A stretch of DNA of 64,000 nucleotides, taken from positions 1 through 64,000 of the forward strand of contig CANFKE010000008.1 in NCBI GenBank assembly GCA_947447465.1, read 5' to 3'. Both the position numbers and the translations under genes were made by a program. Of the stretch, positions 8,025-59,226 are shown in pieces. The first letter of the stretch is position 1. Each line of letters opens with the position of its first letter. Under the pieces are notes generated by a model. It did not search any database. It was not told the origin of the DNA and saw only the letters and a list, made by a program, of their open reading frames with translations. Source of the stretch: Chitinophagaceae bacterium. Lineage in GTDB: Bacteria > Bacteroidota > Bacteroidia > Chitinophagales > Chitinophagaceae.

Positions 8025-9413
8025 ATGTATATGAAAAAGCTATTACTTCTTTTGTCTATCGGCTCTATCAGCCTAGCAACTACCGCTCAGGAAAGTACCA
8101 AGAGCGTAGTATTTACAACAAATCAGGTCGATGAAGCTATGCAGAAACTTACCTACGATCAGTCGCGGGTAAAGCAGCTATTATCCTACACTCGAGGAGT
8201 AAATGCTCCGGATAAAAATGTAGCGCATAAAACAACCAGTGTACAAACTCAGCGTTGGTACAATTATGGAGATTATTTCGACACTACACTTATAGATGGC
8301 GGAAATTCAGCTTCGATCAGTGGAGTGATCATTTGGAATGATACTTTGGGTGAAGCATTATATACATCGGGTCTTGCGCATAACAGGCAGGTTTCTGTAG
8401 GCTCTGTTTTTCAACCTCAGGCTGCTGGATTCAATGATATTAATTACTATGCCGGTAAGATGCATCTGGACAGTACCAATTCATATTCTGTTGACTCTAT
8501 AAGAATATATGGTAATCACAATATTAATCCTGCAAAAACGAGTGTGGTAGATACACTTATTATCACTACACTAAAAGGAGCTAATATTTTTGGCATTCGC
8601 TATACAGGTATGATGGCGAGATATGGTGTAGATACCTTGACCTGTTCTAACATCAGATATGATAGTATAGCTAATACTGGGTCTTTGGGTCTGGGCTCAC
8701 CGGTAACAACTACAAAATTCCCTATTACAGCTGCTATGTGGGGAGACACATTGGCTGATGGAACATTTGTATTGAAATTGCCTGTATCCATCACTGCAGC
8801 AGCAGGTGAAATGTCTGCTATGTCATTGACGTTCAAATCGGGAGATCCAACTTTCCCTACATCAGTACCGGGTGATACAATTGATGCCTTCACCAATGTT
8901 TACAAATACAATAGTTTTTATCCCCTGTCAATTTTTAAATTGGTAGGTACCTCACCTGCATTCGCACCTTACAGTGCTGCTGATCGCAATGAAGGGCTTT
9001 ATAAAACATTGCCTAGTTATTTAAACGGATATGCGACACAGTATGTGCCAATGTGGGCATGGAGTACATCTGGTGGAACGGCTGCATCTTATTTACAGCA
9101 CATTTATATGGATTGGCATGTTAACTGCACTAATTGTACAACAATTGGTGTCAATGAGATAGTGAAGAATATCACTAACGACAGAGCATATCCTAATCCT
9201 GCAGCTAATCAGGTCAATGTTGTTTTCAATATGGCCAATGCTACAACTGCTAACGTTTCAATGATCAATACACTTGGTCAGGTAGTAGCTACTCAGCAGG
9301 TAACTAATGGAAAGGCTTCATTTAATACTACATCAGTGCCTTCAGGTATTTATATATATACCATCAGTGCTAACGGCGAGCAAACTACCGGACGCATTGC
9401 TATTGCGCACTAA
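8025..9413 (+). CDS. secreted protein with T9SS type A sorting domain (paralog B of 6498-7865)
   Basis: Parallel sequence along its length (RWYNYGDYFDTTLIDGGN..., GLYKTLPSYLNGY..YVPMWAWS.., YPNPAANQVNV..GEQTTGRIAIAH). Confidence 0.85.
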   Translation: MYMKKLLLLLSIGSISLATTAQESTKSVVFTTNQVDEAMQKLTYDQSRVKQLLSYTRGVNAPDKNVAHKTTSVQTQRWYNYGDYFDTTLIDGGNSASISGVIIWNDTLGEALYTSGLAHNRQVSVGSVFQPQAAGFNDINYYAGKMHLDSTNSYSVDSIRIYGNHNINPAKTSVVDTLIITTLKGANIFGIRYTGMMARYGVDTLTCSNIRYDSIANTGSLGLGSPVTTTKFPITAAMWGDTLADGTFVLKLPVSITAAAGEMSAMSLTFKSGDPTFPTSVPGDTIDAFTNVYKYNSFYPLSIFKLVGTSPAFAPYSAADRNEGLYKTLPSYLNGYATQYVPMWAWSTSGGTAASYLQHIYMDWHVNCTNCTTIGVNEIVKNITNDRAYPNPAANQVNVVFNMANATTANVSMINTLGQVVATQQVTNGKASFNTTSVPSGIYIYTISANGEQTTGRIAIAH

Positions 9414-48165: not shown

Positions 48166-48183
48166 ATTTAAAACACATAAATT

Positions 48184-48423
48184 ATGAAATTAGTTAAACT
48201 AAGCGTTCTTGCACTTGCAATGGGACTTTTTGTAGCTTCTTGCGGCAACGGAAATGGTGATGCACCTAAAACAGATACTGCAACACCACCTCCAGCTGCT
48301 CCGCCAGCAACACCACCACCGGCTGATACGACAGCAAAACCTGCGGACACTACAAAGCCGGCTGATGCTGCTAAGCCTGCTGATGTTAAAATGGAAGAAA
48401 AGAAAGAAGAAAAGAAGAAATAG
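48184..48423 (+). CDS. small Ala/Pro/Thr/Lys-rich lipoprotein (paralog 1)
   Basis: MKLVKLSVLALAMGLFVASCGNG lipobox; low-complexity tail ending EEKKEEKKK. Confidence 0.75.
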   Translation: MKLVKLSVLALAMGLFVASCGNGNGDAPKTDTATPPPAAPPATPPPADTTAKPADTTKPADAAKPADVKMEEKKEEKKK

Positions 48424-48444
48424 TAGATTTTTGCTACATATTTA

Positions 48445-48480
48445 AATGGAAAGTCATCCATGCTTATGGGTGACTTTTTC
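48445..48480 (+). terminator. Rho-independent terminator
   Basis: AAAGTCAtCC-atgcttat-GGgTGACTTTTT. Confidence 0.65.
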
Positions 48481-48538
48481 ATTGGATAACCTGCCTTTTA
48501 AGCGATTTCAAATATTTTTAAAAATATACGAAAAATTT

Positions 48539-48577
48539 GGGTTACCTTTTTTCAAATGCGGTATAAACATGCATAAC
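48539..48577 (+). promoter_or_regulatory. conserved upstream element of mini-lipoprotein family (copy 2)
   Basis: GGGTTACCTTTTTTCAAATGCGGTATAAACATGCATAAC. Confidence 0.7.
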
Positions 48578-48593
48578 GTTTAAAAACAAAATT

Positions 48594-48851
48594 ATGAAAT
48601 TAGTAAAATTGAGCGTATTCGCTCTTACAATGGGTCTTTTCCTTGCATCTTGCGGTGGTGCTAAAACTGAAGAAGCTAAGACTGATTCAGCTATGGCAAC
48701 TACAGCTCCAGTTGAAGCTGCTCCAGCTCCAGCTGCTGACACAACTGCTAAGCCAGCTGCTGATACAGCTAAGCCAGCTGCTGCTGCAACTGAAGTTAAG
48801 AAGGAAGAGCCAAAGAAGGCTGAAACTAAGACTGACGCTAAGAAGAAGTAA
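48594..48851 (+). CDS. small Ala/Pro/Lys-rich lipoprotein (paralog 2)
   Basis: MKLVKLSVFALTMGLFLASCGGAKTEEAKTDSAMATTAPVEAAPAPAADTT...KKK. Confidence 0.78.
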   Translation: MKLVKLSVFALTMGLFLASCGGAKTEEAKTDSAMATTAPVEAAPAPAADTTAKPAADTAKPAAAATEVKKEEPKKAETKTDAKKK

Positions 48852-48869
48852 TTCTTACTTATCAAGTTA

Positions 48870-48906
48870 TAAAAAACCATTCCGATCATTCGGAATGGTT
48901 TTTTTG
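48870..48906 (+). terminator. Rho-independent terminator
   Basis: AAAAAACCATTCCGA-tca-TTCGGAATGGTTTTTTT. Confidence 0.8.
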
Positions 48907-49052
48907 TTTTGTGTATGTGTTCGTCTGAATTTTCGAGCGGTAATTTGGAGTCAGGGCTTAGAGATGTGCAAAATATCTGTAGGTGTATTTCAAAGAAAGA
49001 TGCCCGGGGGTTACTGCTGCGGACAGAGGTATTATTGAGTATTTATATATGT

Positions 49053-49085
49053 AGAAAAGCCATTCCCTTTCAGGAATGGCTTTTA
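49053..49085 (-). terminator. terminator hairpin downstream of the M1 metalloprotease
   Basis: AAAAGCCATTCC-cttt-caGGAATGGCTTTT. Confidence 0.65.
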
Positions 49086-49104
49086 GATGATATCGGATAA
49101 TAGA

Positions 49105-52100
49105 TTAAAATGCCCTGTTGATGCCTATCACGTATCTGTAAGCAAAATATTGCGGATTGCTGTAAGGCGTACGGTTGACAAAGAATGGCAGATCTACACG
49201 GATGGTAAGTGGTTTTGCTTTTTCAAAAACACCCCAGTTCTTGACCGTAAAAGCAAATCCCAGACCTGCGTCCATGCGCACGTCGCTCCACATATTAGAA
49301 GGTACTATGTTGTAAACATTAGATGCAGAGAAATAGCTCAATTGCATAATGCCTGCGTCTGCAAATGCATAAGCATTGATGTGCAGCCAGTTGCGGAACA
49401 GGCGTGGACGGTAAGGGAAGTAGTTCTCAAAGCCTATTTCCATATTTACAGCGGCACCACTTCTTCCTTTATAGCTTTCCATTACTGTGCCATTGCGTTC
49501 GTCGGGTGTATTGTAGCCGGCATAACCGCGAAGGTTCAATCCTCCACCTTGTTGGAAATGATTCATATCGTAGCGGGAGATGCCACCCCAATCATCAGGC
49601 ACGAATCCTTTGCTGCGGGTGTATTTATTTTCCAGCAGATCTTCAGGACTTCCGCCTGCCAGGTAGAGCAAACTTTCGCCAGGAAATCTGTTGCCCATAC
49701 CATAGCGCCCGAAAACACGCGTGCGTACCTCCAACTTCTTTATATAATTTGTGTTGATAGACTCTAACTGAGCATAAGAATAGTTAGAAGGCGTGCTGTT
49801 GCCATTGAGTATAGGTGCTCTCAGACTGAGCGTATATCGGCCTGCACCGTGCATGTAGTTGTAACTATGTGTCCATGCCAGATTGATTGATGTGTTAGGT
49901 CTTGACCAAGTGCTGGTAAAGTCGAGCGGGGTAATGAGGTAATTAGTATCCTGTGCATCCTGCATCCACATGCTCTGTACATATCCCTGTATGAGGTTCT
50001 TGTCGCTTTGCATCCAGTTAAAGCCACCTCTCTGATACCAGATGCCATCAATGAAACGGCTGTTGATCTGCATAGCCAGCTTAGGGTAGTTGCGGCTGAC
50101 CGGAGAAATATAATTGAACGAGTAATGAACCGGAGCGTAGGTTCTGTAAGGTCCGTCGCCCTTGTAAGACAGATAGGCATCTTCCTGCAATACGTGTGTG
50201 TTCCACCAGATGCTTGCATCCAGTTTGTATAGGGTAAACATATAGTCGCCTTCTACATGAGCGCCTGCTTTTATTCCATCTATAGGGTTCCACCAAACGT
50301 CAGGGCGAACATATAGCCTATATTTTCGTCTGTCATATTGTTCATTGAGACCGCCATCTAATGTGGCTCTCACTGCACCTTTGCAACCCAACAGTCCTTT
50401 GCGGCGGTAATTGTCCACCTCATTTCTGTCCGTGAGTCTGAAGGATGTATCTATCTGAACACTCCTGACTCCTCCTGGCACTGCTACTCTGGCGGTATAA
50501 CCGGCGTTCATCTTACCCCAGCCATACCACTTAGGCAGACTTGTTGCATTGGTCTGCTTATAAAACCAGGTGTTAGGGATGTAGAAATTAAACTTATTGC
50601 CATCTTTAGAAGTAACAGTAAAGTCAATCGGCATCTGCATGTCTCCTTTACGTTTGAAGCGAATGGCAACGCTGTCAGTGCCCTTTATCTTGCTTATCCT
50701 ACCTACGTGATAATCGAGTGTTTTGGTGGTTTCAAACCATTGGTCAAAGAACCATGACAGGTCAACATGGGTATATTGTATCATTGACGCTCTGAAATCC
50801 TCATAATAGGGATGAGCGAATTTCCACTGTTCGAAGTAGTGTTTCAGGGCATTCTGGAACAAGGAGTCGCCCAGCACATACTGCAGATTATAGAGCATAT
50901 TGGCCGTCTTATAATATACGGTACCATATCCGCCGCCATGATTCAGTGCATTGTGGAAATCATCGGAATGGGTATTGAGCGGCAGTTCATTCTGATTGAG
51001 GGCTACATAGGTATAAGGATTAGATATGTTCTTATCCAACACCAATCCCGGATCGGTAAAGTGTTTTTTATATCCCTTAGTAGGTTTTGACCCAAGAATG
51101 GTATCGCCATCGATACGCCTTAAACCCCATGCTGTAAGAAATTGAGTAAAGCCCTCGTCCATAGCAGCTCTGTAGGTCTCATTGCTGCCTACCTGTCCGT
51201 AGAACCAGTTATGGCCTATCTCGTGCACCAGCAGTCCGCGGTAACCTGGCTCTGCACCTCCGTCCATGGTTATCATAGGGTATTCCATACCGTCAGCGGC
51301 ATCTGCCGCCACGATCTTGGGGTAGCGATAGCGTCCTATATCCTGCGAAAAGGTTTTGATGATGCTGGTAATATAGTCGGGTGCATTCTGCCAGCGTGCG
51401 GCATGAGGCTCCTGTACAATGGCCACACACTCGATCCCGTTCCAGTAGGCAGTACCTATGCGGTATGAAGGGTCGCCGGTAAAGGCAAAGTCATGTACAT
51501 TATTCGCTATAAAATGCCATTTTTTACGTTCACCTTTTATATAAGGAGTAATAACAGAGGGTGCTTCATCCCATTTCTTATCTTTAAAATTTTTGATGTC
51601 CAGTTTTGCTCGCAGGTCGGCAGGTAATACCTCATTTCTGTTCTGTAATTCTCCCGATGCTTCTACTACATAGTTAGAGGGGAAATCGAGTGTTACATCA
51701 TACACGCCGTAGTCGCCATAGAACTCCTTGTTGAGGTGCTGATAGGTGTCCCAGCCATGCATGCGGTCATATACCGATACTTTAGGAAACCACTGACAAC
51801 CATTATAATGTTTGAATCCCCAGGCATCATACATCTTCATGCGGCGACGTGTCTGTCCTTTATCATAATAAGTATTGAATCCCATTTTGATAGTGATCTT
51901 TCCTCCCGGTCTCAGAGGTTCGCTCAGATATACTTTCATTATGGTATTGTCCAGTTCGGTCTTTGCTGCCGAGCCATTTACCAGTACATTTTCTATGACA
52001 ATACCCAATCCCGCAGCTTCTTTTTCGCCATAACCGGGGTCGCTTTTGTTGAGTTTTTCCAGTTTGCCCAAATAAGAACCTTTGATAAAGGCATTCTGAT

Positions 52101-52365
52101 ACAAATGGAAATAAACATATTGTAAGGTGTCGGGAGAATTATTCCAGTAGGTAAGCTCCTCCTGTCCTTCTACTCTGTCATCTTCTTCATGAATAGTAGC
52201 ATTGATATTATAGGCTACATCCTGCTGCCAATAAGCTTTATCGGGCATCCGGTTTTGCCAGTAATGTTCATTTGCTGAATTTCTATAAACATTGTCGTGC
52301 CATTGCGCCGACGCCGACAATACAGACAGGATACAGGTGAAGGAAAACAAAGTAAACAACCTCAT
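49105..52365 (-). CDS. M1-family metallopeptidase, large (start trimmed to MRLFTLFSFTCILSVLSASAQW)
   Basis: GMEYPMITMDGG; HEIGHNWFYGQVGSNETYRAAMDEGF (HExxH-x18-E); signal peptide; beta-rich C-terminal half. Confidence 0.92.
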   Translation of the reverse strand: MRLFTLFSFTCILSVLSASAQWHDNVYRNSANEHYWQNRMPDKAYWQQDVAYNINATIHEEDDRVEGQEELTYWNNSPDTLQYVYFHLYQNAFIKGSYLGKLEKLNKSDPGYGEKEAAGLGIVIENVLVNGSAAKTELDNTIMKVYLSEPLRPGGKITIKMGFNTYYDKGQTRRRMKMYDAWGFKHYNGCQWFPKVSVYDRMHGWDTYQHLNKEFYGDYGVYDVTLDFPSNYVVEASGELQNRNEVLPADLRAKLDIKNFKDKKWDEAPSVITPYIKGERKKWHFIANNVHDFAFTGDPSYRIGTAYWNGIECVAIVQEPHAARWQNAPDYITSIIKTFSQDIGRYRYPKIVAADAADGMEYPMITMDGGAEPGYRGLLVHEIGHNWFYGQVGSNETYRAAMDEGFTQFLTAWGLRRIDGDTILGSKPTKGYKKHFTDPGLVLDKNISNPYTYVALNQNELPLNTHSDDFHNALNHGGGYGTVYYKTANMLYNLQYVLGDSLFQNALKHYFEQWKFAHPYYEDFRASMIQYTHVDLSWFFDQWFETTKTLDYHVGRISKIKGTDSVAIRFKRKGDMQMPIDFTVTSKDGNKFNFYIPNTWFYKQTNATSLPKWYGWGKMNAGYTARVAVPGGVRSVQIDTSFRLTDRNEVDNYRRKGLLGCKGAVRATLDGGLNEQYDRRKYRLYVRPDVWWNPIDGIKAGAHVEGDYMFTLYKLDASIWWNTHVLQEDAYLSYKGDGPYRTYAPVHYSFNYISPVSRNYPKLAMQINSRFIDGIWYQRGGFNWMQSDKNLIQGYVQSMWMQDAQDTNYLITPLDFTSTWSRPNTSINLAWTHSYNYMHGAGRYTLSLRAPILNGNSTPSNYSYAQLESINTNYIKKLEVRTRVFGRYGMGNRFPGESLLYLAGGSPEDLLENKYTRSKGFVPDDWGGISRYDMNHFQQGGGLNLRGYAGYNTPDERNGTVMESYKGRSGAAVNMEIGFENYFPYRPRLFRNWLHINAYAFADAGIMQLSYFSASNVYNIVPSNMWSDVRMDAGLGFAFTVKNWGVFEKAKPLTIRVDLPFFVNRTPYSNPQYFAYRYVIGINRAF

Positions 52366-52471
52366 AATTAAAATTTGGGTTAAAAATAGAATATTATCGG
52401 GTAACCCCACATCACCCAATAGCGCTATCTTATTTATGGCATATCTAAGTATATTTGGTAAAACCATTTTT

Positions 52472-52804
52472 ATGATCGACGCACAGCTCATCACCACATC
52501 AACTTCCCTTGAAGGGTACCGTATTGTTAGCCACCATGGAGTGGTAAGAGGTATTACGGTTCGCTCGCGCAGCATCTTTGGTAATTTTGCCGGTGGACTA
52601 CAAGCTATTGTTGGCGGAAAGCTATCGATATATGTAAAGTTGTGTGAAGATACCCGTCAGGAGGCGTTTGCATTAATGGTAGAACATGCCGAAGAAGCCG
52701 GGGCCAATGCCATCATTAATATGCGCTATGATGCCAATGAAGTAATGACCGGGATTACAGAAGTGCTGGCCTATGGTACTGCTGTGAGGGTGGAGAAGAT
52801 TTGA
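52472..52804 (+). CDS. YbjQ/DUF74-family protein (start trimmed to MIDAQLITTS)
   Basis: LITTSTSLEGYRIVSHHGVVRGITVRSRSIFGNFAGGLQAIVGG...REEAFALM-type repeats..AIINMRYD. Confidence 0.9.
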   Translation: MIDAQLITTSTSLEGYRIVSHHGVVRGITVRSRSIFGNFAGGLQAIVGGKLSIYVKLCEDTRQEAFALMVEHAEEAGANAIINMRYDANEVMTGITEVLAYGTAVRVEKI

Positions 52805-52811
52805 CCAGTAT

Positions 52812-53291
52812 TTATTTAGTATACCCTAATGTCTCATACCACGCCTTCGAAGGCCTGTTAGTCGGATAACCATGTTCTGCCCTAAATGCTTTTCGTTCGG
52901 CCGTAAAATCCCACCAATTCTTGCTTGTATCTCTGTGGTTGGCATAGTGCACTACCAGTCGGCATTGGTCTTCAACGCAGGGATCTATCCAATAGCCGCA
53001 ATGGGTTTCTAATTCATCTATCAGTGTGGGGCCATCTTTGTGCTTCAATGAGTCAATTGTATAGTACCCTATTGAAATAAGGTCTTCAGCAAATTTGATA
53101 CCGACAGAAGGTATGGATTGGAATACAATGAGTGCATTGATCTCCATAGCCCGATGTTGAGGTACATTTAGTATGGCGCATATTTCAGTCGTGCTCAACA
53201 TCGATAGGTCGCTCATCCTAATTTTTGCAGCCCTAAGTTGAGCTTTTTCTTCAACGGTAAGCGGTGTTTTGATGGTCTTTTTAGTTGCCAT
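52812..53291 (-). CDS. helix-hairpin-helix / Cdd1-like (pathogenicity-locus family) protein
   Basis: VFQSIPSVGIKFAEDLISIGYYTIDSLKHKDGPTLIDELETHCGYWIDPCVEDQCRLVVHYANHRDTSKNWWDFTAERKAFRAEHGYP. Confidence 0.78.
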   Translation of the reverse strand: MATKKTIKTPLTVEEKAQLRAAKIRMSDLSMLSTTEICAILNVPQHRAMEINALIVFQSIPSVGIKFAEDLISIGYYTIDSLKHKDGPTLIDELETHCGYWIDPCVEDQCRLVVHYANHRDTSKNWWDFTAERKAFRAEHGYPTNRPSKAWYETLGYTK

Positions 53292-53489
53292 ATCAGTTAA
53301 TTATTGCAAATATCCTGAAGTTTGCGATGCGGAAGAAAATATAGTCAGGTAAAATAGCTGAAGCCCTTATTTTTCGGGTAGTACAGCAAAAATAACATGG
53401 CTACGACCCAACTAAAAAAAATCTCATTTTTCTTTTGACCTTCAAATGATTATTTTTGCAGCGTTTTATATCAAATAACAAAAAAAATT

Positions 53490-54800
53490 ATGGCAATCGT
53501 TGACCTGGTAATGCCTAAGATGGGCGAAAGTATAATGGAAGCTACAGTGCTTAAATGGCACAAGAAAGTAGGTGACGTTATTAAAATGGACGAAACCCTG
53601 CTGGATATAGCTACCGACAAGGTAGATAGTGAAGTTCCTTCAACAGCTGCCGGTACCATCACAGAATTGCTGTTCAAAGAAAATGACGTAGTGCCGGTTG
53701 GTGCCGTTATTGCACGTATAGATGCCGGTGGCGCTGCCGCTGCACCTGCGCCGGCTGCACCTCAGGCTGCTGCTGCGCCAGCCCCTGCTGCTGTTACGGT
53801 TCATAATGCCGCGCCTGCTGCCCCTGTAGCCGCGCCTGCTGCAAGCGGTTCACGTTTCTACTCTCCGTTGGTATTGAATATTGCCGGCAAGGAAGGTATT
53901 GGCATGGCTGAATTGGAAAATGTACCCGGTACCGGCAATGAAGGCCGTGTGACCAAGAAAGATATATTGGATTATGTAGCTAACAGAGGCAATATGCCTG
54001 CCCCTGCTGCTGCGCCTGCAGTTGTTGCAGCACCTGCGGCTCCGGTTGCTGCAGCGCCTGCTGCCGCTCCGTCAGCATCTGTTCCTTCGGGTAATGTGGA
54101 GATCATAGAGATGGACCGTATGCGTAAGCTGATAGCTGATCATATGGTGCGTAGCAAGGCTACTTCTCCGCATGTCACCAGCTTTACAGAAGCTGATGTT
54201 ACCAATCTGGTTAAATGGCGTGATAAGGTGAAGGGTCCTTTCGAAAAGAAGTATGGCGAAAAGATCACGTTCACTCCAATATTCATCGAAGCTGTTGCGA
54301 GTTGCATCCGTAAGTTCCCTATGATCAATGTTAGTGTTGAGGGCGATCGCATCATCGTTAAGAAAGATGTGAACATTGGTATGGCTACCGCACTACCAAG
54401 CGGCAACCTAATCGTTCCGGTCATTAAGAACGCGGATACTAAGAATCTGATCGGTCTTTCTAAGGATGTGAATTCATTGGCCAATGCGGCACGTAACAAT
54501 AAGCTGAAGGTAGATGATACGCAGGGTGGTACATTCACACTGACTAACGTAGGTACTTTTGGTAGCCTTATGGGCACGCCTATCATCAATCAGCCACAGG
54601 TTGCTATACTTGCGGTCGGCTCTATAAAAAAGAGACCAATGGTATTGGAAACTGCTGATGGTGATGTGATCGCTGTTCGCCACATGATGTATCTGTCATT
54701 GAGCTATGATCACCGTGTTGTTGATGGTTCATTGGGTGCCAGCTTCCTTACAGCGGTGGCCAATGCATTGGAAGCATTCGATCCGAAAAGAGATATCTAA
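53490..54800 (+). CDS. 2-oxo acid dehydrogenase dihydrolipoyl acyltransferase (E2)
   Basis: Lipoyl domain ETLLDIATDKVDSEVPS; Ala/Pro linkers; E3-binding domain; catalytic SLSYDHRVVDGSLGASFL. Confidence 0.95.
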   Translation: MAIVDLVMPKMGESIMEATVLKWHKKVGDVIKMDETLLDIATDKVDSEVPSTAAGTITELLFKENDVVPVGAVIARIDAGGAAAAPAPAAPQAAAAPAPAAVTVHNAAPAAPVAAPAASGSRFYSPLVLNIAGKEGIGMAELENVPGTGNEGRVTKKDILDYVANRGNMPAPAAAPAVVAAPAAPVAAAPAAAPSASVPSGNVEIIEMDRMRKLIADHMVRSKATSPHVTSFTEADVTNLVKWRDKVKGPFEKKYGEKITFTPIFIEAVASCIRKFPMINVSVEGDRIIVKKDVNIGMATALPSGNLIVPVIKNADTKNLIGLSKDVNSLANAARNNKLKVDDTQGGTFTLTNVGTFGSLMGTPIINQPQVAILAVGSIKKRPMVLETADGDVIAVRHMMYLSLSYDHRVVDGSLGASFLTAVANALEAFDPKRDI

Positions 54801-54822
54801 GCAATATCATTCATTCTTATAA

Positions 54823-54857
54823 ATAAGGCCCGTGTTGTATAACACGGGCCTTATTAT
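54823..54857 (+). terminator. Rho-independent terminator
   Basis: AATAAGGCCCGTGTT-gtat-AACACGGGCCTTATT perfect hairpin. Confidence 0.85.
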
Positions 54858-55586
54858 TTTATGGATCACCACCTCAATTTTTCAATCATTTCAGGTAGCA
54901 TTGGTGTGTATTTGACTGATACTTTTTTATGAACAATACCGGGCAGGTTCTACTGTCTTTTTTGCCTGTTTTTTTACGCTAATTTGAGTAGCTTTTCGTA
55001 AGGTGCTCTCAGTTAACTTTAGCGCATAATTTACTGTATTTATTATTGATGTAACAAAAAATATTTTTACAGCAGCAATACAGATGCAACATTCTTTTCT
55101 GTGAAAAAATGAGTAAATTTACAATAGGTCTTTTACAGGTGGTCTTATTTTGGTGCTTTATATGTATGATGTGCTGAAATGCTTTCCTGTAAAGGGTTTC
55201 AGCAGTTGCTCCTATATACGGAGATGATAAAAATGAGGTTGAACTTTTTAAATTAAAGCAGGTAGTTGTTAATCAATTGTCACAGTAAGTGGAAAGGAGA
55301 AAAAAGCGATTATCAGCGCAAAGTCCACACTGTAGTTCAAACTAAACTAACAATAGCTGTTCAATTTTTTTTTTCAACAAAATGTTAGCAATTTCGTTCT
55401 CCCGAAAAAGAAACGGATGTTAACTTGAAAGGTGGCGGGAATTCGTACAGAGAATAAAAAATAAAACAGATTAAGAAGGGCCGTAAAAAGTGGCTGAAAA
55501 CAATGGATCATTTTCAGATAGTTTTCTTGTCGCTGCTACTGCCGGGTAACAAATTCAATTAACTTTGTTGAGCGTTGTTAACAAAT

Positions 55587-57065
55587 ATGAATAAAGACAT
55601 TTACAATACCGACATTAACTCTCAAAATGATATTGAGCAACTTTGGGAAAAGTGCCTTGCTATCATAAAAGATAATGTCAACTGGCGTACCTACCAGACT
55701 TGGTTTGAACCGATCAAAGCCGTTAGCCTGAATGATAATATCGTTACCCTTCAGGTACCGAGCCAGTTTTTTTATGAGTGGCTTGAAGAACATTATGTAG
55801 AACTACTGGGTAAGACCATCAAGCGTGTACTGGGTAAAGCAGCTCGCCTTGAATACCGTATTATGATGGAAGGCAGCAGCGCACAGCGCAATCCTGCATC
55901 TATCAATATGCCGGGTAGTACACATACACGCCCGCCTAAAGAGAATAACTTCATAGACATGCCGCTGAAGTGGGATGATCCGCACAATATAAAAACGCCT
56001 TATGCCATCCCCGGTCTGAAGCGTATGCAGATCGATCCGCAGCTGAATGCTAACTATGTGTTCGATAATTATGTTGAAGGTGATTGTAACCGCGTAGCTC
56101 GTTCTGCGGGTTTGCATATCGCTCAGAAGCCAGGTGCTACTTCATTCAATCCTTTGGTAGTGTTTGGTGGCGTTGGTTGGGGTAAGACCCATCTTGTACA
56201 GGCTATAGGTAATGAAGTACGCAGATTGCATCCTAACAAGGCAGTACTCTATGTTAGTGCGGAAAAGTTCATCAACCAGTTCATAGATCACGCCAAGAAT
56301 AATGAGATCAATGATTTTATACACTTCTATCAGTTGATAGATGTATTGATCATGGACGATATCCATCTTTTTGTTCCTGCTGTTAAAACACAGGATGTGT
56401 TCTTTGCTATCTTCAATCACCTGCACCAGAGTGGTAAGCAGATCATCCTTACCAGCGATACCGCACCACGCGATATGGAAGGTATGCAGGAGCGCTTATT
56501 GAGCCGCTTCCGTTGGGGATTGAATGCCGATATACAGGCGCCTGATTTCGAAACGCGCCAGGCTATACTCCGAGTAAAAATGCGTCATGAAGGTTTGGAA
56601 ATACCTGATGATGTAGTGAAGTATATGGCTTACAATATCCAGAGCAATGTACGTGAGCTGGAAGGTGCACTGATAGCATTGTTCGCACAGGCTACGCTGA
56701 ACAAGAAAGAAATAGACATGGATCTGGCCAAGCGCGTCATGAAGAACTTCGTGAAGACCGCTGCCCGTGAAATGACCATAGAGAACATACAGAAACTGGT
56801 ATGCGATTACTACCATGTGCCGTATGAGAAGTTGCTTACCAAGACACGTAAACGTGAAGTGGTACTGGCTCGCCAGATAACCATGTACTTTGCGAAGAAG
56901 TTTACCAAGCAGTCTTTAAAGACCATTGGCGACCACTTCGGCGGCTTCGACCATACTACTGTTATTCACTCTTGCCAGACGGTTGAAAACCTGATGGAAA
57001 CAGATACTGAATACAAGGAAAATCTGATGGAACTGCTACAGAAAGTGCAGTTGGCCAGCATCTGA
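55587..57065 (+). CDS. dnaA: chromosomal replication initiator protein DnaA (start at 55587 preferred over 55575)
   Basis: NPLVVFGGVGWGKTHLVQAIGNEV Walker A; VLIMDDIHLF; C-terminal REVVLARQITMYFAKKFTKQSLKTIGDHFGGFDHTTVIHSCQTVENL. Confidence 0.96.
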   Translation: MNKDIYNTDINSQNDIEQLWEKCLAIIKDNVNWRTYQTWFEPIKAVSLNDNIVTLQVPSQFFYEWLEEHYVELLGKTIKRVLGKAARLEYRIMMEGSSAQRNPASINMPGSTHTRPPKENNFIDMPLKWDDPHNIKTPYAIPGLKRMQIDPQLNANYVFDNYVEGDCNRVARSAGLHIAQKPGATSFNPLVVFGGVGWGKTHLVQAIGNEVRRLHPNKAVLYVSAEKFINQFIDHAKNNEINDFIHFYQLIDVLIMDDIHLFVPAVKTQDVFFAIFNHLHQSGKQIILTSDTAPRDMEGMQERLLSRFRWGLNADIQAPDFETRQAILRVKMRHEGLEIPDDVVKYMAYNIQSNVRELEGALIALFAQATLNKKEIDMDLAKRVMKNFVKTAAREMTIENIQKLVCDYYHVPYEKLLTKTRKREVVLARQITMYFAKKFTKQSLKTIGDHFGGFDHTTVIHSCQTVENLMETDTEYKENLMELLQKVQLASI

Positions 57066-57129
57066 TAAGTACTCATAACAGTGCCAAGATATTAGAAAAT
57101 AAAAAAGAAGTAAAATTTTGAAAATTTCT

Positions 57130-57159
57130 TTTGTTTTATTCTCAGAACTCTTATCTTTG
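57130..57159 (+). promoter_or_regulatory. Bacteroidetes-type promoter for the tRNA-Ser/tRNA-Pro pair
   Basis: TTTG - 18 bp - TATCTTTG (TAnnTTTG consensus) about 54 bp upstream of tRNA-Ser. Confidence 0.7.
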
Positions 57160-57212
57160 CACTCCCTTAACGAAAGCGGAAAGGGAATTATCCGGTACTA
57201 ATAAAATACTGA

Positions 57213-57302
57213 GGTGAGGTGGGAGAGAGGCCGAATCCACTAGTTTGCTAAACTGGCGTGCGTCGTTAAGATGTACCGAGGGTTCGAATCCCTCCTTCAC
57301 CG
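57213..57302 (+). tRNA. tRNA-Ser (anticodon GCT)
   Basis: GGTGAGG...CTTCACC acceptor stem, CTAG-TTTGCTAAA-CTGG anticodon arm (loop with GCT), long variable arm, GGTTCGAATCC T-arm. Confidence 0.93.
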
Positions 57303-57353
57303 CTGATTACTATTAATAATCGGCTGCTAACAGAAATGTTGGCGAACATTGTC

Positions 57354-57427
57354 CGGGAAGTAGCGCAGGCCGGTAGCGCACCTGGTTTGGGACCAGGGGG
57401 TCGCAGGTTCGAATCCTGTCTTCCCGA
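57354..57427 (+). tRNA. tRNA-Pro (anticodon TGG)
   Basis: CGGGAAG...CTTCCCG acceptor, CCTGG-TTTGGGA-CCAGG anticodon arm, GCAGGTTCGAATCCTGT T-arm. Confidence 0.95.
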
Positions 57428-57428
57428 C
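57398..57428 (+). repeat. tRNA-Pro 3'-end direct repeat, copy 1 (att-like)
   Basis: GGGTCGCAGGTTCGAATCCTGTCTTCCCGAC; identical to 57504-57534. Confidence 0.9.
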
Positions 57429-57437
57429 TCTTATAAT

Positions 57438-57468
57438 AAGCCTCACAGCAATGTGAGGCTTTTTTGTT
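57438..57468 (+). terminator. terminator of tRNA-Pro (T1)
   Basis: AAGCCTCACA-gcaa-TGTGAGGCTTTTTTG. Confidence 0.85.
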
Positions 57469-57478
57469 TTTATTCCTG

Positions 57479-57534
57479 CAGCGCATCCCGACTCTGGTCG
57501 GGAGGGTCGCAGGTTCGAATCCTGTCTTCCCGAC
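57479..57534 (+). pseudogene. partial tRNA-like copy carrying the tRNA-Pro 3' end (direct repeat copy 2, att-like); no 5' acceptor strand
   Basis: CAGCGCA-TCCCGACTCTGGTCGGGA-GGGTCGCAGGTTCGAATCCTGTCTTCCCGAC; the last 31 nt are identical to tRNA-Pro. Confidence 0.8.
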
Positions 57535-57542
57535 ATAATACA

Positions 57543-57578
57543 CACACAATGGACTGATTTTCAGTCCATTGTGTTTTT
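57543..57578 (+). terminator. second terminator (T2) after the tRNA-like copy
   Basis: ACACAATGGACTGA-tt-TTCAGTCCATTGTGTTTTT. Confidence 0.8.
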
Positions 57579-57804
57579 AGGGAACAACATAAGAACAAAA
57601 TACGTTCTTACCCCCCTATCCTTTTAGTTCTGTTACACAGAATTACACAATCTTTAAAAAATCTCCTCTTCTATTGATAAAATTCCAATAGTTCTCCCCC
57701 TTTCTATAAATAATCCATTCTCCCACAAAACAAAATCCAATCTGGGATATATAACATTACACCAAGACCGAAACGGTTCATGGATAAAAAACCACCCCTA
57801 CAAA

Positions 57805-58047
57805 ATGAAGAAAAGATATGTAGATGTATCGTTCCAAAGTTTTCTGAGACACCGATTGAATGAAGGAGTAAAATTGAAAACCAAAGAAGAGGAAGAACCA
57901 ATTGAAAACGAAGAGGAGGAAGGTGAAGAACCTACCCCAGAACCAATTGAAAAAAAGAACTCAAAAAAGAAAGTTGATACCATTGATGAGATTGTAAACG
58001 ACTATAAAAAACTAAGAGAGGAGTTTGATAAGATTTTTGAGGACTGA
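57805..58047 (+). CDS. island ORF A: small highly charged (Glu/Lys-rich) protein of unknown function
   Basis: 80-aa ORF with ATG start: MKKRYVDVSFQSFLRHRLNEGVKLKTKEEEEPIENEEEEGEEPTPEPIEKKNSKKKVDTIDEIVNDYKKLREEFDKIFED. Confidence 0.55.
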   Translation: MKKRYVDVSFQSFLRHRLNEGVKLKTKEEEEPIENEEEEGEEPTPEPIEKKNSKKKVDTIDEIVNDYKKLREEFDKIFED

Positions 58048-58060
58048 TACGGGAGAAACG

Positions 58061-58300
58061 ATGTATGATACTAACATGATGAGAGAAACCCTCAAAGTAT
58101 CGAAGTCTTTCCTGATAAGGGAAATGAAGAAATACAACTTTCTGGAAACTGATTATATCCGATATAAAAACCAAATCCTTTACACGGAAACCTCATTTTT
58201 TGAGTTCATTGAGTATCTGGTAAAGAACCGATTGATAAGGGATATAGACGAGTTAAGACGGGAGGTTGATAAAATGATTATAAACACCGATGGACTATGA
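58061..58300 (+). CDS. island ORF B: small HTH/excisionase-like DNA-binding protein candidate (start trimmed from 58025)
   Basis: MYDTNMMRETLKVSKSFLIREMKKYNFLETDYIRYKNQILYTETSFFEFIEYL resembles a winged-HTH excisionase layout. Confidence 0.5.
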   Translation: MYDTNMMRETLKVSKSFLIREMKKYNFLETDYIRYKNQILYTETSFFEFIEYLVKNRLIRDIDELRREVDKMIINTDGL

Positions 58301-58439
58301 AAAATTGAGGTGTCTCAATAAGAGTATGACCGAAAAAAAACTAAAACTCTCAAAGGAAAAAGACCCAAAGAAGAAACAGAAACTAGATTTACAAATTAAG
58401 ATTTTGGATTTGAGAATAAGATTAGAAAAATTGAAATAA
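58290..58439 (+). CDS. island ORF C: 49-aa Lys-rich coiled-coil-like protein, overlaps ORF B (absent from supplied ORF track)
   Basis: ATG at 58290 inside the end of ORF B; MDYEKLRCLNKSMTEKKLKLSKEKDPKKKQKLDLQIKILDLRIRLEKLK*. Confidence 0.45.
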   Translation: MDYEKLRCLNKSMTEKKLKLSKEKDPKKKQKLDLQIKILDLRIRLEKLK

Positions 58440-58522
58440 ACTATAAAGAAAATCAACGGACAATTAGTTATTCACTTCTGTAAAAAGTGAGAAAAATAAA
58501 GGGGTTAGAACAATAGTTTACA

Positions 58523-59101
58523 GTGAAATCACTTTATCTCGTGTTGCCTGTTATCATAGGTTTTGTATCGTGTTCGGAGAATGGTGCCGATAAAACTCAA
58601 CCAGCAAGCGAAAGACACTCAAAGCTTAATGCCTTTCTTGAAAAGATTCCATCTATTACATTACCTATTGAAATACGAGGATGTTCTATCAATACACAGA
58701 GTCTGACAAGAGTTGATAACAACAAATTTATATCGGCGAACGTAAACTATGGGTATGGAAAGCTAGAGCCGAATAGCAAATTTACAGCTGTAGTCTTTCT
58801 TGCAAGTGCCGATTGTGAAATACCTGTTTTGGCAACCTATGATAAGTCCGGCAACAAAATAGACGAAAAGGAGATCAACATTGGTTATTGCGGTTCCGAT
58901 TGCGGATATACTTGTAACGAGATAATGAGCATAGACAACAACAAGAATATTTTTACTGCTGATACGATTTCATCTTACGACTGTGACAGTTTAGGTAATG
59001 CTATACCTGGAACTGAGCAACATTACGTAATCTATAAACAAGGGAGAATATTAGAAACGGGAAAAATTGAATTGTCTAAGGAGATAAAAAAACAACTATA
59101 A
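58523..59101 (+). CDS. island lipoprotein of unknown function (GTG start)
   Basis: Lipobox PVIIGFVSCSEN; 192 aa; stop codon sits 3 bp before the third tRNA-Pro-like repeat. Confidence 0.65.
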   Translation: MKSLYLVLPVIIGFVSCSENGADKTQPASERHSKLNAFLEKIPSITLPIEIRGCSINTQSLTRVDNNKFISANVNYGYGKLEPNSKFTAVVFLASADCEIPVLATYDKSGNKIDEKEINIGYCGSDCGYTCNEIMSIDNNKNIFTADTISSYDCDSLGNAIPGTEQHYVIYKQGRILETGKIELSKEIKKQL

Positions 59102-59104
59102 AGC

Positions 59105-59171
59105 GGTTCGAAAGTTATCCTGTCTTCCCGACTCTAACATAAAGCCTCACAGCAATGTGAAGCTTTTTTGT
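59105..59171 (+). repeat. degenerate tRNA-Pro 3' end plus T1-like terminator, direct repeat copy 3 (att-like)
   Basis: GGTTCGAA[AGTTA]TCCTGTCTTCCCGACTCT...AAGCCTCACAGCAATGTGAAGCTTTTTTGT; 1 mismatch in 30 nt to terminator T1. Confidence 0.88.
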
Positions 59172-59226
59172 TGTTGTATCAATTTTGGACTTGTTTGGCA
59201 TAAAATAGACTGCCTGTTAACTATTC

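Follow-up and report, generated by a model that had tools for sequence, protein, structure and literature searches.

A recombinase-less insertion at the 3′ end of tRNA-Pro(TGG) in a Chitinophagaceae bacterium, probably one of many cassettes of a large serine recombinase/tRNA system

Organization of the tRNA-Pro(TGG) locus

The stretch of DNA analysed here (the window) is 64,000 nucleotides long and comes from contig CANFKE010000008.1 of the Chitinophagaceae bacterium assembly GCA_947447465.1. In this window, a tRNA-Pro(TGG) gene was called by ARAGORN at 57354–57428, which is the integration target of the segment described below and whose last 31 nt (57398–57428, copy 1) recur exactly at 57504–57534 (copy 2, a second att remnant), just as a sequence-only reading of the window had claimed. 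An exact 31-nt repeat at a spacing of 106 bp far exceeds chance occurrence. The tRNA gene is followed by its terminator (terminator A, 57429–57471, a GCCTCACAGCAATGTGAGGC hairpin with a T run), which is the last stretch common to the congeners, and then by the hairpin TCCCGACTCTGGTCGGGA (57486–57503), which lies immediately 5′ of copy 2 in an arrangement otherwise found in congener G003 only. Moreover, copy 2 has a separate downstream terminator (terminator B, 57544–57579, ACAATGGACTGATTTTCAGTCCATTGT with a T run). The right-end att core (copy 3, 59105–59132) consists of two parts, the element-specific GGTTCGAAAGTT (59105–59116) and an exact 16-nt tRNA tail ATCCTGTCTTCCCGAC (59117–59132), and leads into terminator A′ (59133–59175), the displaced original tRNA terminator. 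The tail of copy 3 and this terminator form a 56-nt direct repeat with the end of the tRNA gene (57413–57468 versus 59117–59172, 51/56 identical), and the terminator copy shows one mismatch over ~30 nt, which agrees with the earlier reading. The third copy noted there is also real, but more than a degenerate repeat, since the sequence of its left half recurs at element ends.

Four small ORFs lie between the repeats, on the plus strand like all the features above. Three of them are the genes of a module, namely an 80-aa ORF (57805–58047, 33% identity to a 57-aa ORF in locus L068), a 79-aa ORF (58061–58300, 62% identity to its homologue in L084) and a 49-aa ORF (58290–58439, 43% identity to a 51-aa ORF in L068), and the fourth encodes a 192-aa putative lipoprotein (58523–59101), which is cargo. 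None of the four gave a significant Pfam or PHROG match, and no recombinase was found among the ORFs of the segment in the ORF list or with Pfam and PHROG. The inter-repeat segment has 34% GC and 40% A, compared with 42% GC for the window, so that the atypical, A-rich content of small ORFs noted before is confirmed. A phage or viral origin was considered and rejected, because there were no matches in viral_contigs or in the phage records.

Evidence for an insertion from the congeners

In the 10 congeners searched, the similarity along dnaA, tRNA-Ser, tRNA-Pro and the terminator ends at or near the terminator, and the onward sequence differs in each. The site is uninterrupted in G010, the closest congener over the dnaA–tRNA segment, and copy 3, terminator A′ and the next nucleotides match this empty site in an alignment of 84 nt, which continues past the terminator with GTTGTTG(T/G)ATCAA and covers the attR side alone. 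This match indicates that copy 3 is the displaced original end. The dnaA/tRNA block (48168–57471 in the window versus G004:C21) is inverted relative to its flanks with one breakpoint just behind tRNA-Pro, and the comparison farther to the right is therefore blurred. We conclude that this 1.7-kb segment was inserted at the tRNA-Pro 3′ end and has no recombinase gene. The integrase-less insertion with att-like repeats that had been proposed from the sequence is borne out by the different downstream content in all congeners and by the 84-nt match to the site in G010, which is the kind of empty site in a sister genome that the proposal had pointed to; the opposite outcome, the same segment in all close relatives, was not found, as the content past the terminator varies by congener.

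The further idea of a tandem accretion is likely correct, considering that copy 2 has its own terminator and that a parallel copy-2 arrangement is present in one congener. Copy 2 and terminator B would then mark where one event joined, and copy 1/copy 3 where another did, in either order; the similar arrangement in G003 speaks for a process that has occurred repeatedly. Among 61 genomes, a copy-2-like unit was found only in the window genome (G000) and G003, and it was thus rejected as a common feature of the family (2/61).

The three-gene module and its relatives

The three ORFs of the module are found in the same order, with 33–43% identity, in G009, where they adjoin a tRNA-Lys gene, a tyrosine integrase and an excisionase-like gene, and further homologues exist in 11 of the 399 family genomes. 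In other genera, the module occurs in integrative elements of ~9–11 kb, there ahead of Rep-like genes. For example, in a closed genome of another genus (L084), a 9.2-kb element at tRNA-Ala has the module next to the tRNA gene, followed by a protein that has the HUH-like motif FHFHLFIS and matches nothing in Pfam, by an Eco57I-type enzyme and by a tyrosine integrase, and ends in a 13-nt tRNA repeat. In L091, an 11.3-kb element lies between 50-nt tRNA-Asn repeats; tyrosine integrases flank the module in this locus and in L067, L068, L088 and L090. The module of L085 and L089 goes together with serine recombinases inside comM, and the Rep-like protein of L085 has a weak match to REP_ORF2-G2P. All these loci have the module before Rep-like genes in common, and their recombinases and targets differ. 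The Rep-like genes behind the module encode either proteins with HUH-like motifs or a 325–327-aa protein without Pfam match, and the targets of these small elements are tRNA genes or comM.

The window DNA shares 68% identity with L084 over 476 nt, and this similarity ends at 58518, five nt before the start of the lipoprotein gene (junction 58519–58522), where L084 runs on towards its HUH-Rep-like gene. Behind the window module, the Rep-like gene and the integrase are absent and the lipoprotein gene is found instead, a homologue of which (51% identical) is located in an ordinary chromosomal setting in G124. Since the L084 similarity stops at 58518 and a lipoprotein gene comes next, Rep and integrase are gone from the segment. 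The earlier suggestion of a remnant element is therefore likely to be right, in that the segment holds a module found in larger elements and has neither the Rep nor the integrase of these; the support does not extend to the mobilisation in trans that was suggested along with it.

The right-end signature in the family

Outside the window, GGTTCGAAAGTT was found only in recurrent units of G003, which are arranged in tandem and are ~119 bp each. Right-end units of this signature are also located behind tRNA-Pro(GGG) or tRNA-Pro(TGG) in G004, G005 and other congeners, and a similar right end lies behind tRNA-Ser in G006. A model built from sequence only (R1) matched in 97 of 399 genomes and 42 of 104 genera, a count of genomes that includes many weaker solitary matches, taken as scored, and the matches are clustered as arrays in G315, G343, G409 and G238. 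In the window, no more than the final ~36 nt of the unit are left; they match R1 at E=0.0014, and their tRNA-tail half is of host type. In 20 sampled loci, all 19 occurrences of the 28-nt core were on the predicted strand, with none on the other strand or in shuffled sequence, and a tRNA-Pro gene was present upstream on the same strand within ~16 kb in 8 of 16 core-bearing loci.

The cassettes in the 17 tRNA-Pro islands inspected are ~0.7–12 kb long, and their cargo includes, among others, genes for regulators, for short-chain dehydrogenases and for SIR2-like proteins. For 51 cargo proteins of these islands, 25 of 53 families were listed, none of them a recombinase family; an IS transposase was seen once. 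The window genome has a second island at tRNA-Pro(GGG) (G000:C47, L121 8238–10822), which is recombinase-less and has a clear right-end unit; it contains ORFs of 124, 288 and 241 aa, including a DpnII/MboI-type nuclease, with a weak HNH match, and its terminator is duplicated (86/87 nt). As G000 is an incomplete assembly of 70 contigs and some of the other genomes are metagenome-assembled, the arrays in fragmented assemblies, above all that of G003, may contain joins. A co-located tyrosine integrase (P0001 of G367) was considered as the recombinase of the arrays and rejected, since its relatives are present in only 9 of 279 genomes. In addition, a left hairpin CTTCAAGTCNTTGGATTTGAAG followed by GTTCGAA was seen in the recombinase-less cassettes of family members with large genomes (G238, G343, G114, L192 and L194). 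In L201, a duplication of tRNA-Pro(TGG) takes in 300 nt of the DNA behind it (8353–8780), and the duplicated stretch is found again, as a 375-nt repeat, where the island ends on the right (16009). The tRNA-Pro(GGG) gene of G004 (L114 6866–6940) ends in CCCTAC, not CCCGAC, possibly as an acceptor-end mutation.

On the minus strand, the core can be read as V-G-x-[TA]-G-Q-[ILM]-S-N-x-[FL]-[IL]-x-D-L, which is open for ~17–32 codons, and the consensus of the tail is xTGQ[IL]SNxFIxDLxxIxxF-stop. In 63 distinct copies, which are not independent, so that the figures are descriptive only, stops at nt 30–60 from the core (outside the tRNA-like part) occur in 6 copies in frame 0 versus 56 and 36 in the other frames, the differences by codon position are 5252/3530/7090 with third positions most variable, and the BLOSUM value is 1.12 in minus-strand frame 0 versus −0.85 and −0.37. 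Judged from these sequences, the right end seems to encode the C terminus of a protein.

Large serine recombinases at tRNA genes

In G009, tRNA-Pro(TGG) is faced by a minus-strand gene for a large serine recombinase (LSR) with Resolvase and Recombinase domains, the frame of which passes through the terminator into the antisense tRNA (VGETGFEPATP...). Relatives of this LSR are present in 126 of 299 family genomes. In 24 of the 30 loci listed, a tRNA gene on the opposite strand overlaps the end of the LSR frame, and the tRNAs overlapped in this way are those for Pro, Ser, Leu, Arg, Met, Phe, Gln, Val and Glu. Furthermore, G202 and G012 have elements that start at tRNA-Pro with an LSR and whose far end, at a distance of 9–20 kb, is the right-end core. 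Because of these overlaps with the tRNA 3′ end, and because LSR elements carry the same right end, the right-end signature is probably the displaced 3′ end of an LSR gene. Two recombinase-less cassettes follow the LSR element in G202, an array lies behind an LSR in G238, and a second LSR in G092 reads through the core of the preceding element, thereby gaining a TGQMSN tail. The left arm ACWRGACAAGG is located just after CCCGAC in LSR elements and is absent after copies 1 and 2 of the window and in the other recombinase-less cassettes listed.

An LSR is likely to be the mobiliser, rather than a typical tyrosine integrase. In the window genome (92% complete assembly), no LSR was found at E<=1e-20, which makes present mobility doubtful, and the window cassette is probably immobile now. 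As for its tyrosine recombinases, two look like XerC/XerD. Another one (L099, G000:C44) is surrounded by type I restriction genes and several HsdS-like fragments in what is probably a phase-variable shufflon, and a mobile-type tyrosine integrase with an excisionase-like gene near a contig end (L098 9272–11894, G000:C4) belongs to another integrated element, which is without the module.

Proposed origin of the segment and alternatives

Considering all these results, we assume, with a probability of about 0.6, that 57429–59135 is a remnant-like recombinase-less cassette at tRNA-Pro(TGG), one of many in Chitinophagaceae, which belongs to an LSR/tRNA system. The segment is att-bounded and is without integrase and transfer genes, and its best reading is that of a CIME-like cassette of this system. 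In such a system, attP would lie within the 3′ end of the LSR gene, and integration would exchange the C-terminal tail of the LSR for antisense-tRNA codons, leaving the true tail at attR. In the circle, the left arm ACWRGACAAGG would join the right-end TTGTCCAGT to give an attP with dyad symmetry, predicted for an LSR element like that of G202 to be TTTGTCCAGTC-NCCCGAC-TNNACTGGACAA, with the LSR frame continuing into xTGQ[IL]SN...stop. The recombinase-less cassettes, whose LSR was lost or never present, would keep the shared ends and could be moved in trans by such LSRs.

Several points count against the LSR reading: most recombinase-less cassettes do not have the left arm of LSR elements, the window genome gave no LSR match at E<=1e-20, the window has just a short piece of the right-end unit, and the closest relative of the module, L084, lies in a tyrosine-integrase element. 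The segment could also be a deletion derivative of a tyrosine-integrase mobilisable element, with copy 2 as attL and copy 3 as attR, and its likeness to LSR ends a coincidence or a later overlay. The layout of L084 is indeed alike, with tRNA-Ala, terminator, module (62% for the 79-aa protein), Rep-like gene, tyrosine integrase and a 13-nt attR before a terminator, and L067, L068, L088, L090 and L091 have tyrosine integrases beside the module as well. However, the module is also present in elements with serine recombinases only (L085 and L089 in comM), GGTTCGAAAGTT of copy 3 was found again only in the units of G003, and the second tRNA-Pro island of the same genome has a clear unit, so we consider this derivation rather unlikely.

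Duplications of the host terminator, 49–375 nt long and starting exactly at CCCGAC, were found in 7 of 20 comparisons of recombinase-less cassettes. They are not predicted by canonical LSR integration and suggest homologous recombination or a non-canonical reaction. It is possible in principle that cassettes move through duplicated tRNA terminators by homologous recombination (natural transformation or looping out), with recombinases acting in the founding events only. Consistent with this, the duplications are present at both ends of several recombinase-less islands, these islands lack the LSR left arm, and G004 and G010 differ by a 4.2-kb cargo segment that is flanked by terminator copies alone. 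Such a route is nevertheless improbable, since recombinase-less cassettes of many genera show strong conservation of their right-end core and many islands have no terminator duplication, a sharp common border that homology alone fails to explain. A decayed duplicated tRNA array with vertically inherited genes between and no insertion is hardly credible: copy 2 alone, with its hairpin and terminator, could resemble a decayed tRNA, but the content behind the terminator is different in every congener, the window ORFs are a mobile-element module of other genera, and copy 3 is an element-specific end joined to the original terminator.

Returning to the LSR/tRNA system, a wider view may be put forward tentatively, as possible though doubtful: tRNA-Pro genes might serve as anchors of cassette capture in Chitinophagaceae, where LSRs with attP in their own 3′ end would insert elements, recombinase-less cassettes of one gene or an operon that share the right end would build up in tandem, recombinase 3′ pieces at the cassette ends would complete the LSR frame of the next element or of the circle, and the tail of the LSR would report its integration state.

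Comparison with known systems

No report of this tRNA/LSR cassette system in Chitinophagaceae was found in the open-licence literature. If our reading is true, the segment gives a glimpse of cassette traffic at tRNA genes that is widespread in an environmental family and has apparently gone undescribed, with a cargo of regulators, enzymes and a few genes that resemble defence genes (SIR2/ThsA-like and a DpnII-type nuclease). In integron arrays, most cassettes hold cargo and no recombinase, and each ends on one side in a recombination site that recurs from cassette to cassette. The Chitinophagaceae arrays resemble them in the recombinase-less cargo and in the recurrent site at one cassette end, whereas the site here is a tRNA-tail mimic and also recombinase coding sequence, and the cassettes are ~0.7–12 kb, several with more than one gene.

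The CIMEs (cis-mobilizable elements) of streptococcal ICE/IME families, as named in PMC7563491 and PMC5704250, are att-bounded and recombinase-less, and are mobilisable after accretion. The difference is that the probable recombinase here, as far as the sequences indicate, is a tRNA-targeting LSR. The cassette chromosome elements of staphylococci (SCC) and enterococci (ECC) are driven by LSRs at the 3′ end of a protein gene, rlmH, and have multiple attR sites, dyad-symmetric att and remnants, with a CcrAB pair as recombinases (PMC6222049). They are similar to the Chitinophagaceae system in the target at the 3′ end of a conserved gene, the multiple attR, the dyad-symmetric att (predicted here) and the remnants, while a single LSR gene, convergent with the tRNA gene, is found here in place of the CcrAB pair.

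The ssrA islands of Dehalococcoides, which together with SCC are the nearest known parallel, have nearly every structural feature in common with the Chitinophagaceae system. They are in tandem behind one RNA gene and are bounded by short 3′-end repeats; the LSR gene dsiB is located at the left edge, where its 3′ end overlaps attL and its stop codon is unclear, and 15 islands have no integration module and were suggested by the authors to be cis-mobilizable (PMC3146451). The same authors speculated that only circularization, or a 3′ fragment in the adjacent island, makes the DsiB gene complete (PMC3146451). In the Chitinophagaceae, which belong to the phylum Bacteroidota, the targets are tRNA-Pro and many other tRNA genes, not ssrA, and the 3′ recombinase fragment at the right ends is seen at the protein level. 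If true, the system described here would thus offer a testable answer to the DsiB question, that is, where the 3′ end of a recombinase gene overlapping attL is kept.
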